From IMG/VR virus record IMGVR_UViG_3300020439_000111, positions 1-20,071 of that record: a DNA stretch of 20,071 nt. The stretch is one strand, 5' to 3'. A model generated the notes under the pieces. That model did no database searches. It was not told where the DNA came from and saw nothing but the letters and a program-made list of their open reading frames with translations. The position numbers were made by a program, and so were the translations under genes. Below, one piece after another: positions 2,903 through 6,165 of this stretch. Positions within the stretch are counted from its first letter, which is position 1. Every line of letters starts with the position of its first letter. Origin of the DNA: a virus.

Positions 2903-4579
2903 ATGGCATACCAAGGTATTAATACTGGCACAACGCCAAATGATGGTACTGGTGACTCTCTAGTTGCTGGTGGTATAAAAATCAACAGTAACTTCACTGA
3001 GATTTATAATCTCCTTGGTAATGGAACCACTTTATCTGTTGGAATTGTATCTGCAATAACCGCAGGAACAAATGTTTCGTTAAACACAACAACTGGTAAT
3101 GTAACGGTATCTGTACCAACTCCAGTTTCTATTGCAACTACTGACGTAGACATCTCAAGAAACCTCAAATCTGCTGGGATCACAACTTTAGGTGTAACGA
3201 CGGTTACAACATTATTAACTGCGGGTATCACCACACTTGGAAGTCAGGGTGGTGTTACAACAACTGGTGGTGATTTGTATGTTGGTGGAGATCTATATGT
3301 ATCTGATGATATTGTCTATGATGAAGTGACTGGTAGAAATATCAATATTACTGGTGTTGGTACGATCACAACATTCAAAACAGATGATGCAACTGTTAAT
3401 AATAGTCTGAGTATTGGTTCTACTCAAGTCTTATCTAGTTCAAGACAACTTAGTAATATTGTTGGATTTGATTCTACAACGACTGTAGCAATTGAAAATG
3501 CAATAGCACAAGACCCTATTAGTTTTCCACATTTATTAGTATCTGGTGCCACAACAACAACTACACTTGGAGTGGCTGGACTTGCAACTTTTGCTCAAGT
3601 AACAAATTTCGGTGAATCATTATTTGATGGTGTTGTTACCATGGGTAGTTCCATACTCATGCCGGTAGATAAATCCATTATTTTTGACAGTAAGTTAGAG
3701 ATACTTCAGGATGACACTGAAGGTAGTATCATTAATGATAGGGTTGGAAGTGTCAAGATTAAACATGCAAACTCGACAGTATTTGAAACCACTGGTGCTG
3801 GTGTAAGTATTACAGGTGTTTGTACTGCAACGTCGTTCGTTGGTGACTTGAATGCTGGTGCTTTGGTGGTCTCTGGTGTAAGCACTCTGGGTGTTGTAAC
3901 TGGAGCAACATATTACGGTAATGGTGCTAACCTAACTGGTATTGCTAGAACTGATGTCATTGTTGCAGATTCATTAGTAGTATCTGGTGTTAGTACTCTT
4001 GGTGTTGTAACTGGAGCAACATATTATGGTAATGGTTCTGAAATAACAGATGCGAAATGGGTTGTTTCAAATAATGGTTCAAGTAACTACACATTTACTG
4101 GTATTGGTTTTACTCAAACCGCAAATCAACCAACACTTTATCTGTTGAAGGGTAACAAATATGAATTTGAAATTAATGTAGGAGCTGCTCATCCATTCCA
4201 GATTAGAAGATCAAATGGAGGTTCAGCATACAATATTGGTGTAGAAAATAATGGTGCACCTGCTGGTATTGTGACATTCAGGGTTCCTATGGATGCACCT
4301 GAGAAACTCTTCTATCAGTGTACAGTCCATGCTGGAATGGGTAATACCATTTACACGGTAGGAGGTAACTCAAATATCAGCGCAGATTCTTTAGTGGTTT
4401 CTGGAGTATCCACATTAGGTGTTGTTACTGCATCAAATCAATATAATACTGGAATTGTTACTGCAATTGGTGGATTTGTAAGTGCTGCATCTACTCAGGC
4501 TGTAAAGATTACATTCTCTGGAACAACTCTCACATTTAATGTGGCTGGTATTGGTTCTACAAGCCTTACATTATCATAA
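2903..4579 (+). CDS. fibre-like virion structural protein with inserted cupredoxin-like domain
   Basis: A 558-residue protein. The N-terminus (GTTPNDGTGDS, then KINSNFTEIYN) is a pattern I recognise from structural/tail-fibre-like proteins of marine T4-like phages. Residues about 50-380 are repetitive beta-strand sequence rich in GITTLG and GVSTLG units. A 28-residue unit beginning LVVSGVSTLGVVTGATYYGN occurs at residues 321 and 358, and a shorter copy at about 496. Between the second and third copies, residues about 384-487 are different: aromatic, without the repeat, with His430, Cys473, His476 and Met479 arranged as in type 1 copper proteins of the amicyanin type. No signal peptide is visible. 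The gene sits between the gene-7-position protein and gp8, a place with no gene in T4, so it is an added virion component, probably an appendage. Function is inferred; whether copper is bound is unknown. Confidence 0.75.
   Translation: MAYQGINTGTTPNDGTGDSLVAGGIKINSNFTEIYNLLGNGTTLSVGIVSAITAGTNVSLNTTTGNVTVSVPTPVSIATTDVDISRNLKSAGITTLGVTTVTTLLTAGITTLGSQGGVTTTGGDLYVGGDLYVSDDIVYDEVTGRNINITGVGTITTFKTDDATVNNSLSIGSTQVLSSSRQLSNIVGFDSTTTVAIENAIAQDPISFPHLLVSGATTTTTLGVAGLATFAQVTNFGESLFDGVVTMGSSILMPVDKSIIFDSKLEILQDDTEGSIINDRVGSVKIKHANSTVFETTGAGVSITGVCTATSFVGDLNAGALVVSGVSTLGVVTGATYYGNGANLTGIARTDVIVADSLVVSGVSTLGVVTGATYYGNGSEITDAKWVVSNNGSSNYTFTGIGFTQTANQPTLYLLKGNKYEFEINVGAAHPFQIRRSNGGSAYNIGVENNGAPAGIVTFRVPMDAPEKLFYQCTVHAGMGNTIYTVGGNSNISADSLVVSGVSTLGVVTASNQYNTGIVTAIGGFVSAASTQAVKITFSGTTLTFNVAGIGSTSLTLS
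3860..3949 (+). repeat. in-frame repeat unit, copy 1 (SGVSTLGVVTGATYYGNG)
   Basis: First of three in-frame copies within the 558-residue protein. Copies 1 and 2 are identical over 20 residues starting LVVSG and are 111 bases (37 residues) apart. At DNA level they differ mainly at synonymous positions, so the protein sequence is what is being kept. Confidence 0.8.
3968..4048 (+). repeat. in-frame repeat unit, copy 2
   Basis: Second copy of the SGVSTLGVVTGATYYGNG unit, preceded by ADS. It ends just before the cupredoxin-like segment starts with DAKW at residue 383. Confidence 0.8.
4049..4366 (+). other. cupredoxin-like domain with candidate type 1 copper ligands
   Basis: Codes residues about 383-488 of the 558-residue protein. 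The order seen is a Trp-containing start (DAKW), a TLYLLKGNKYEFEI strand, AHPFQIR holding His430, an FRVPMDAPEKLFYQC strand ending in Cys473, then TVHAGM giving His476 and Met479. Cys-x2-His-x2-Met with an upstream His about 40 residues away is the ligand layout of amicyanin (His53, Cys92, His95, Met98). Plastocyanin and pseudoazurin have Cys-x2-His-x4-Met instead. All four ligands being present argues against a decayed domain. Metal binding itself is inferred. Confidence 0.7.
4385..4435 (+). repeat. in-frame repeat unit, copy 3 (partial)
   Basis: Third, shorter copy (DSLVVSGVSTLGVVTAS) that resumes directly after the cupredoxin-like segment. It shows that the segment sits inside an array of repeats. 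Confidence 0.75.
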
Positions 4580-4605: not shown

Positions 4606-6165
4606 ATGGCTGCGATAATTACTGATCAACTGCGTATTTTGAATGCGAAGAATTTTGTAGATTCTGTACAAGATTCTTCTAATTCCTATTATGCTTGGAT
4701 TGGTCTTCCAGATGCTCCTGAGTTTCAGAGTGATTGGAATACTGCTCCTCCTGCACCAAAGGATAGTTTAGATGATTCCAATTATTATTGGGATACTATG
4801 TTGGCCCTTAAAAAGATCAACAGTGGTGATGTAAGTCAGGTTGTAAGAAAGATTTCTTGGCAGTCAGGTACCACATACGACATGTGGAGAAATGATATTG
4901 ACAGAGATAATCCTTCTCAACCATCTGGAGCATTTGACATCTATGACTCCAATTTCTATGTAATGAACAGTGAGTATAAGGTTTATATTTGTCTCTTCAA
5001 TAACGCAAATCCAGAGAATAGTTTTAGAGGTGGTCCTTCTCTTGATGAACCTAACTTCACTGACTTAGAACCAAGAGAAGCTGGAAGTAGTGGTGATGGT
5101 TATATTTGGAAATATCTTTATACTATCAAACCAAATCAAATTATCAAGTTTGATTCTACAAATTATATTGCCGTTCCAACTGACTGGGACACTAATGCAT
5201 CTTACCAATCAGTCAGAGAAAATGCAGGTACAAGCGGTCAGTTAAAAATCGTCACGATCAGAAATCGTGGTGTTGGTATTGGAACAGCTAATGTAACTTA
5301 CACAAGAGTTCCTATTCTTGGTGATGGTAGAGGTGCTGAAGCGACTGTTGTTATCAACAACGACTCTAAAGTACAATCCGTCACTGTATCAAGAGGTGGT
5401 GAAGGATATTCATTCGGTACACTTGATCTCGAAAAAGGTGGTGTTCCTACAGGAACGATTGCTCCAGTATTTGATGTAATCATTCCTCCTGGTGGTGGTC
5501 ATGGTGCTGACATTTATCGTGAGTTGGGTGCATATAATGTTCTCTCTTATGCAAGATTTGAAAATGATACTCAGAACCCAGATTTTATCACTGGTAACCA
5601 GTTTGCACAAGTTGGTATTGTTAAGAATCCTAAAGCATATAACTCTACAACCAATCTGACACTTGACAAAGCTAGTGCAGTATATGCACTCAAGTTAGTT
5701 GGTACTGGATACAGTGAAGCAAAATTCACAGCAGATACTTTTGTTACCCAGACTGTTGGTCTTGGTTCAACAGCTGTTGGTAGAGTTGTTTCATACGATC
5801 AACAAACTGGTATCTTAAAGTATTGGCAGGACAGAAGAACTGCTGGTTTCAATACGGATGGTACAAAACTTACCACACCTCAGTATGGATTCGAACAATT
5901 AAAGTTCACTGCAGACCCTGTAACTGGTGGTAGTTTAGACATCATTCCTACATCTGGAAATACTCTTCAAATTGACGGTGCTTTTACGGGTGTCTCAACG
6001 GTAATAAATAATCGTACCTACTACCTGGGTCAGGACTTCACTAAAGGAGTCTCTAATCCAGAGTCTGACAAGTACTCTGGTGACATCATTTATGTTGACA
6101 ACAGACCTTCAGTTACTAGATCAGCTTCACAGAAAGAAGACGTTAAAGTTATCTTGCAATTCTAA
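4606..6165 (+). CDS. 8: baseplate wedge subunit gp8
   Basis: A 519-residue homologue of T4 gp8, a dimeric component of the baseplate wedge that contacts gp6, gp7 and gp10 in T4. Recognised from recalled T4 gp8 sequence: GDGYIWKYLY at residues 163-172 (T4 GDGYVWEYLF), followed by a YIAVP segment (T4 YIVVP), and a C-terminus GDIIYVDNRPSV near residues 492-503 (T4 GEMIYMENRPPI), ending in VILQF (T4 ILFTF). T4 gp8 has 334 residues, so about 185 extra residues lie in the middle. Part of the extra sequence is a GxGY module (SRGGEGYSFG, residues 255-276) like those in gp14 and the large proteins. The start at 4606 is the first ATG after the upstream stop and matches the expected N-terminal region; the ribosome binding site is weak. 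It is 5 bases from the next gene, so the two are probably co-transcribed. Confidence 0.92.
   Translation: MAAIITDQLRILNAKNFVDSVQDSSNSYYAWIGLPDAPEFQSDWNTAPPAPKDSLDDSNYYWDTMLALKKINSGDVSQVVRKISWQSGTTYDMWRNDIDRDNPSQPSGAFDIYDSNFYVMNSEYKVYICLFNNANPENSFRGGPSLDEPNFTDLEPREAGSSGDGYIWKYLYTIKPNQIIKFDSTNYIAVPTDWDTNASYQSVRENAGTSGQLKIVTIRNRGVGIGTANVTYTRVPILGDGRGAEATVVINNDSKVQSVTVSRGGEGYSFGTLDLEKGGVPTGTIAPVFDVIIPPGGGHGADIYRELGAYNVLSYARFENDTQNPDFITGNQFAQVGIVKNPKAYNSTTNLTLDKASAVYALKLVGTGYSEAKFTADTFVTQTVGLGSTAVGRVVSYDQQTGILKYWQDRRTAGFNTDGTKLTTPQYGFEQLKFTADPVTGGSLDIIPTSGNTLQIDGAFTGVSTVINNRTYYLGQDFTKGVSNPESDKYSGDIIYVDNRPSVTRSASQKEDVKVILQF
6003..6010 (+). promoter_or_regulatory. possible internal late promoter motif AATAAATA
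   Basis: The same octamer found before three structural genes occurs here inside the gp8 coding sequence (Val-Ile-Asn-Asn codons), 160 bases before the giant gene, which has no room for a promoter in its 5-base gap. It may be chance in AT-rich coding sequence. Confidence 0.2.

Follow-up and report, generated by a model that had tools for sequence, protein, structure and literature searches.

The C-terminal part of a baseplate wedge protein encoded in a virus-derived DNA stretch (IMG/VR record IMGVR_UViG_3300020439_000111, positions 1 to 20,071; this whole 20,071-nucleotide stretch is hereafter called the window) is probably a true cupredoxin domain that holds a functional mononuclear type 1 copper site. 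We put the probability of this reading at roughly 0.6. What computation establishes is the fold, the right placement within it of four residues, His430, Cys473, His476, and Met479, and selection on these residues as a unit. Hundreds of related viruses retain or lose the four ligands jointly, which suggests that the virus particles carry copper. Cupredoxins are known in the form of exported electron carriers and of oxidase domains; here the fold, with the full set of copper ligands under joint selection, appears as a building block of baseplates and fibers in abundant marine phages.

Baseplate context and fold of the domain

The wedge protein gene lies on the plus strand at positions 2903 to 4579, starts with ATG, and encodes 558 amino acids. 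Residues 1 to 486 of its product matched the phrog_677 profile (“baseplate wedge tail fiber protein connector”; 4.7e-51), and amino acids 4 to 46 matched PF07880 (T4_gp9_10_N; 1.3e-7, 32.2 bits against a cut-off of 25). PDB chains of T4 gp10 matched the N-terminal part at 9e-8, and gp9 did so at 0.0026. The neighboring gene (4606 to 6165, plus strand) encodes a gp8-like baseplate wedge subunit (phrog_438, 3.2e-155) with 90% identity to Synechococcus phages RB11-B and S-B05. These matches, together with the gp8-like neighbor, identify the window as derived from a marine cyanomyovirus and the gene as a baseplate wedge gene of the T4-like gp9/gp10 family. The N terminus is of the gp9/10 type and, as noted in a preliminary description of this DNA, the protein carries no signal peptide. 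The likeness to T4 gp9/gp10 is found in this N-terminal part and in the gp8-like wedge gene neighborhood, whereas the C-terminal part of the phage wedge protein is a cupredoxin domain; to our knowledge, no such domain is present in T4 gp9 or gp10. When searched alone, the domain matched the end of the phrog_677 profile at 7.3e-36.

The domain comprises residues 383 to 488 (4049 to 4366, plus strand). The cupredoxin fold proposed for it in the preliminary description was borne out by structure prediction and fold search, which gave a confident model with copper cupredoxins at the top of the lists, and we regard this fold as almost certain. The AlphaFold2 model of residues 377 to 494, computed from a 40-row domain alignment limited to the window sequence and loci recovered in scans, has eight strands, with a pLDDT of 91.1 and a pTM of 0.83. 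Against the PDB, Foldseek returned six matches at E ≤ 0.001, all of them copper cupredoxins, i.e., four chains of Hyphomicrobium copper nitrite reductase (CuNIR; best, 1.2e-5) and two rusticyanins; the CuNIR region matched was the N-terminal cupredoxin domain, residues 24 to 137. The top matches by VIA-align 2 reached Z scores of 9 to 11, with 11.0 for 2dv6 (99 residues, rmsd 3.7, 20% identity) and about 9.7 for rusticyanin and small laccases, and AcoP was also among the best solved-structure matches. Foldseek TM-scores were moderate (0.50 to 0.57 by query length), which points to a cupredoxin fold of its own branch. Greek-key connectivity was judged from the Foldseek and VIA alignments. The best structural match, the three-domain CuNIR of Hyphomicrobium (2dv6), likewise has its cupredoxin domain fused to others; it is a catalytic electron-transfer enzyme, in contrast to the phage protein, which has no catalytic copper domain. 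Matches to the model in BFVD included giant-virus “beta-sandwich proteins” from Pithovirus LCPAC304 and Marseillevirus LCMAC201 (1e-6 to 1e-5).

In sequence searches, the window domain alone had no match in Pfam and only chance-level matches, all of them laccases, among PDB sequences. With a profile of nine domain members, matches extended to CuNIR (3.1e-4), amicyanin (5.2e-4), and plastocyanin (2.7e-3), and a 40-member profile gave weaker values (CuNIR, 5.4e-4; others, 0.026 and worse). Relatives of the domain scored 13 to 20 bits against PF00127 (Copper-bind; best relative, E = 1.4e-4), below the cut-off of 21.2 bits; the domain is therefore not filed in this family, although a distant relation is likely.

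Candidate copper ligands and their conservation

The four residues had been described as a complete candidate type 1 copper site, with numbers that proved accurate and fall within the domain. According to the DSSP assignment of the model, His430 (model residue 54; 4190 to 4192), the first equatorial ligand, sits just before strand 432 to 435 (56 to 59 in the model), and Cys473 (model residue 97; 4319 to 4321), the thiolate ligand, terminates strand 468 to 473 (92 to 97), in agreement with the strand-end position previously attributed to it. His476 (model residue 100; 4328 to 4330), assigned as the second equatorial ligand from the model and its conservation, and Met479 (model residue 103; 4337 to 4339), the axial ligand at the end of the His476 loop, both precede model strand 104 to 110 and lie in the loop that joins the last two strands. 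All four codons are on the plus strand. The domain thus has the order of a type 1 site (His...Cys-x-x-His...Met, with one Cys, two His, and one Met) and also its topology, with the Cys at the end of the penultimate strand and the second His and Met in the loop that follows.

Ligand spacing in the wedge protein is H-x42-C-x2-H-x2-M. The amicyanin-like spacing claimed in the preliminary description (amicyanin ligands, His53, Cys92, His95, and Met98; PMC12723479) is identical after the Cys (C-x2-H-x2-M) and close before it (43 versus 39 residues). The residue after the first His, which is Asn54 in amicyanin and Ser86 in rusticyanin and influences the site in both (PMC12723479), is Pro in the phage domain, and this counts against a working type 1 site. 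Amicyanin, among the best single-domain sequence matches of the phage domain, shares with it the cupredoxin fold, the His/Cys/His/Met set, and the length of the C-x2-H-x2-M loop; it differs in being an exported periplasmic electron carrier with a partner enzyme (methylamine oxidation), whereas the phage domain has Pro instead of Asn after the first His and resides within a virion-type protein without a signal peptide. The HMM alignment with amicyanin placed the first His two residues off; as this His is matched in the alignments with PetE and CuNIR, we regard the offset as an alignment slip. A profile-profile alignment with cyanophage PetE superimposed His430, Cys473, His476, and Met479 on the PetE ligands (probability 70%, E = 4e-5, one comparison). 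The pattern H-x30-60-C-x2-H-x2-M arose in 5 of 200,000 post hoc shuffles of the same 558 residues; conservation of the site among relatives with a median identity of 51% is stronger evidence against chance than the shuffle.

To assess conservation, domains were gathered with a profile masked at the four ligand columns, and IMG/VR was scanned with three DNA patterns located outside all four ligands, one just before the Cys and two before the first His, both on the strand preceding it. Loci from a scan whose patterns required C-x-x-H-x-x-M were for this reason excluded from the ligand-conservation counts, and a scan aimed at ligand-less copies was left out as well. The resulting set comprised 183 domains with <85% mutual identity and at least 80% domain coverage; some single odd states were present in rows below this coverage, which fall outside the statistics. 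The site was complete in 166 of the 183 nonredundant domains: 164 were exact, one had a two-residue insertion (C-x4-H, L231), and one was misaligned, with the His present one column off (L378). His430 was kept in 92% of the domains and Met479 in 96%. Where the site was lost (17 domains), Cys and the second His were both gone without exception, and the first His was also gone in 14 cases. Consistent with this, pairs of ligands ranked first to third among 406 pairs of well-conserved columns (phi of 0.97 for Cys473-His476, 0.87 for His430-Cys473, and 0.84 for His430-His476). The correlations of Met479 with the other ligands were weaker (0.67, 0.65, and 0.42), in part because a Met-Gly turn often persists where the site is gone.

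In a tree from which the ligand columns were omitted, about 10 changes of the Cys state were counted, at least three of them on well-supported branches, and the second His changed in the same way in every supported pair tested, the three pairs being too few for formal significance. All 38 domains found in the context of a gp9/10-type N terminus were complete (median identity of 51% among 29 nonredundant). A natural single change was found in L149, where His476 is replaced by Tyr, and its near-twin L102 is intact. A variant loop, C-x4-H-x2-M (CTVPSHASM, CGIPSHVNM), occurs in L223, L231, L252, and L273, with two extra residues between Cys and His.

The earlier claim of a complete site is therefore sustained by the number of whole sites, the all-or-none mode of loss, and the profile alignment onto the plastocyanin ligands, and the homologues do not freely lose any of the four residues. 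As judged from sequence comparison, joint retention and joint loss are the pattern expected of one metal site and not of a decaying relic, and the four residues very probably form a functional metal site. The opposite reading, a metal-free beta-sandwich for surface binding that was inherited from a copper protein and retains the ligands as a conserved relic, draws support from ligand-less copies in working phages, i.e., in a tail fiber of about 782 amino acids in S-B43 and RB11-B (L336:2446-4788 and L497; GGFPFYLKT...YYQASNVAGMG), and from two phages, S-PM2 and S-CREM2, without a convincing copy of the domain (see below). A relic, however, would decay residue by residue, whereas here Cys and the second His were lost jointly in 17 of 17 cases, the ligand pairs are the most correlated columns, and there were no losses in the 38 wedge-protein cases; we thus consider this reading improbable. 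RB11-B has both a complete site in its wedge protein and the ligand-less copy in its 782-amino-acid tail fiber, and the latter can serve as a natural negative control since the complete copy is in the same genome. For the ligand-less variant, modeling yielded a poor structure (pLDDT 70) with mixed matches, RhoGDI coming first (Z, 7.1) and CuNIR reaching around 5.5.

Metal and role of the site

Copper is likely the natural metal of the site formed by the four residues. Alternatively, the site could be real and purely structural and hold another metal in nature, be it cytoplasmic zinc or a mixture of metals. Cupredoxins made in Escherichia coli pick up zinc, and a protein with a gp9/10-type N terminus and no signal peptide would fold in the cytoplasm, where zinc far exceeds copper in availability. 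Set against this, the axial Met is kept in 96% of the domains, Cys/two His/Met is a copper set and not a usual zinc set, and copies without ligands retain the remainder of the domain sequence, so that a metal is not always needed. Another natural metal is unlikely in our estimation, although less so than a metal-free relic.

The preferred reading, a copper site on the particle, has to account for its loading. The cytoplasm holds almost no free copper, which counts against copper loading of the wedge protein. As there is no export signal, the protein would fold in the host cytoplasm, so that it would encounter copper only once the cell lyses or at the host envelope. We envisage that the wedge protein, synthesized in the cytoplasm and not exported, is assembled into the baseplate, and that the site would take up copper at lysis or after release of the particle. 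Copper may then lock the loop and stiffen the surface-exposed domain, which could aid particle stability or a weak contact with the host envelope. The domain would thus probably be a surface module whose mononuclear copper site stabilizes either the domain itself or host contact. The role is the weakest step of this proposal, and stability or adhesion as the function of the copper-site domain is put forward tentatively, at somewhat less than even odds. That working blue copper centers on the baseplates and fibers of marine phages would tune attachment or DNA release through their copper state (bound or free, oxidized or reduced), making the infection of marine bacteria responsive to copper or redox conditions at the cell surface, is a speculative extension that we consider improbable.

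Among open-access full texts, no paper was found that describes a structural cupredoxin domain in phages, the cyanophage structure and proteome papers searched mentioned copper only for microscope grids, and no metal content, spectrum, or structure was found for any member of the domain, nor any listing of the wedge protein among accessible virion proteomes. The fold and site would thus be familiar ones, placed in a setting not previously reported. The nearest published idea is the binding of iron by HxH motifs in phage tail fibers such as T4 gp37, the “Ferrojan horse” (PMC11705849). In both cases a transition metal would be held by conserved residues on the tail, with a proposed link to marine trace metals; the HxH sites are octahedral His sites for iron, in contrast to the mononuclear Cys-His2-Met site predicted here within one folded domain. 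Copper, if bound, would add a second kind of metal to phage tails besides the iron of the HxH sites and would enter the debate on phages as marine trace-metal carriers; it would also offer a simple test of whether metal supply affects infection.

Spread among marine phages and relation to plastocyanin

A protein search at E 0.01 found the domain in 359 phage records, nearly all of them marine cyanophages. Records named Synechococcus, Cyanophage, or Prochlorococcus numbered 352 with the domain and 458 with the gp8-like protein, a proportion of about three quarters that is rough because the two lists were unmatched and near-identical records are abundant. One correction to the preliminary description is that the domain is not confined to this phage: hundreds of marine cyanophage records contain it.

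The domain is at the C terminus of wedge proteins in S-SSM4, Syn9, P-SSM7, S-B64, and S-SM1; the S-SM1 orthologue (gp9-like, SSM1_103) has a complete site, and the virion of this phage was analyzed by mass spectrometry (PMC3037559). P-SSM2 carries the domain twice in its tail spike and four times in the genome. It is also found at the N terminus of the podovirus tail protein of P-GSP1, inside tail fibers of Bellamy and of the Methylophilales phage Melnitz, fused to an S8 peptidase in S-H9-1, and as a stand-alone protein in S-SCSM2R. By sequence, then, the domain looks like a modular unit that marine phages place on wedge proteins, tail fibers, and spikes. The genome of S-PM2 gave only a marginal partial match and no convincing copy, and that of S-CREM2, a phage with a published virion proteome, gave no match to the domain; these two genomes characterize it as an accessory module. 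Given that the site is gone from a few members and that the domain seems to be absent from a few phages, it is not essential everywhere. Genes for S8 (subtilisin-like) peptidases recur with the domain, being fused to it in S-H9-1 and immediately upstream in P-SSM2 and S-SCSM2R; the coordinates of these peptidase genes are L011:812-2818, L006:477-2312, and L009:11-2275.

In the window, positions 3853 to 4464 contain three copies of an 84-nucleotide direct repeat (LVVSGVSTLGVVT), and the domain lies between the second and third, copy two (3964 to 4047, plus strand; ADSLVVSGVSTLGVVT...) directly preceding it and copy three (4381 to 4464, plus strand) directly following it. These flanking repeats likely provide a route for swapping the domain in and out.

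An origin in host genomes received little support. Only five genome contigs matched, four of which are in marine bins (L330 to L333, binned as Prochlorococcus, Rhodopirellula, Thaumarchaeota, and Flavobacteriales) and have a phage-like matching stretch, the fifth contig being from Bacteroidetes. At least L331 and L333 carry T4-like wedge genes, so that the four contigs look like phage DNA in host bins.

The list of carriers bears on a further reading, namely a redox or copper-sensing role in the virion, in which the copper center would exchange electrons with the host envelope, or sense conditions there, and thereby tune adsorption or triggering. The site is of the electron-transfer type with its full ligand set conserved, the hosts are photosynthetic cells, and their infection is light dependent. 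Against it, the analysis turned up no partner, electron path, or docking patch, and the domain is also present in phages of non-photosynthetic hosts, a methylotroph (Methylophilales phage Melnitz) and an actinobacterium (Actinomycetia phage DSL-LC01), which argues against a role tied to photosynthesis. It is the most interesting of the rival readings, and we rate it as less probable than even the metal-free relic.

Cyanophages also encode plastocyanin, and the domain might be this auxiliary protein (PetE), either joined to a structural protein or misread as one. The two families are found in the same phages and share the four ligands, which align with each other, and one stand-alone copy of the domain is annotated as PetE. 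Nevertheless, six of eight cyanophage genomes examined encode, elsewhere and in addition to the sub-cut-off structural domain, a true petE with a leader peptide and PF00127 matches of 1e-19 to 1e-21. The true PetE is a separate, small, exported protein of the host photosynthetic chain with the longer loop C-x2-H-x4-M, whereas the structural domain has C-x2-H-x2-M and is internal to a leaderless 558-amino-acid protein. We therefore rejected identity with the auxiliary plastocyanin as very improbable; the structural domain and PetE are distant relatives at most. The annotated copy is a 169-amino-acid “PetE” in S-SCSM2R (L009:2297-2803) that consists of the leaderless structural cupredoxin domain, with the real petE located elsewhere in the same genome, a warning for annotators that a stand-alone structural copy already bears this label.
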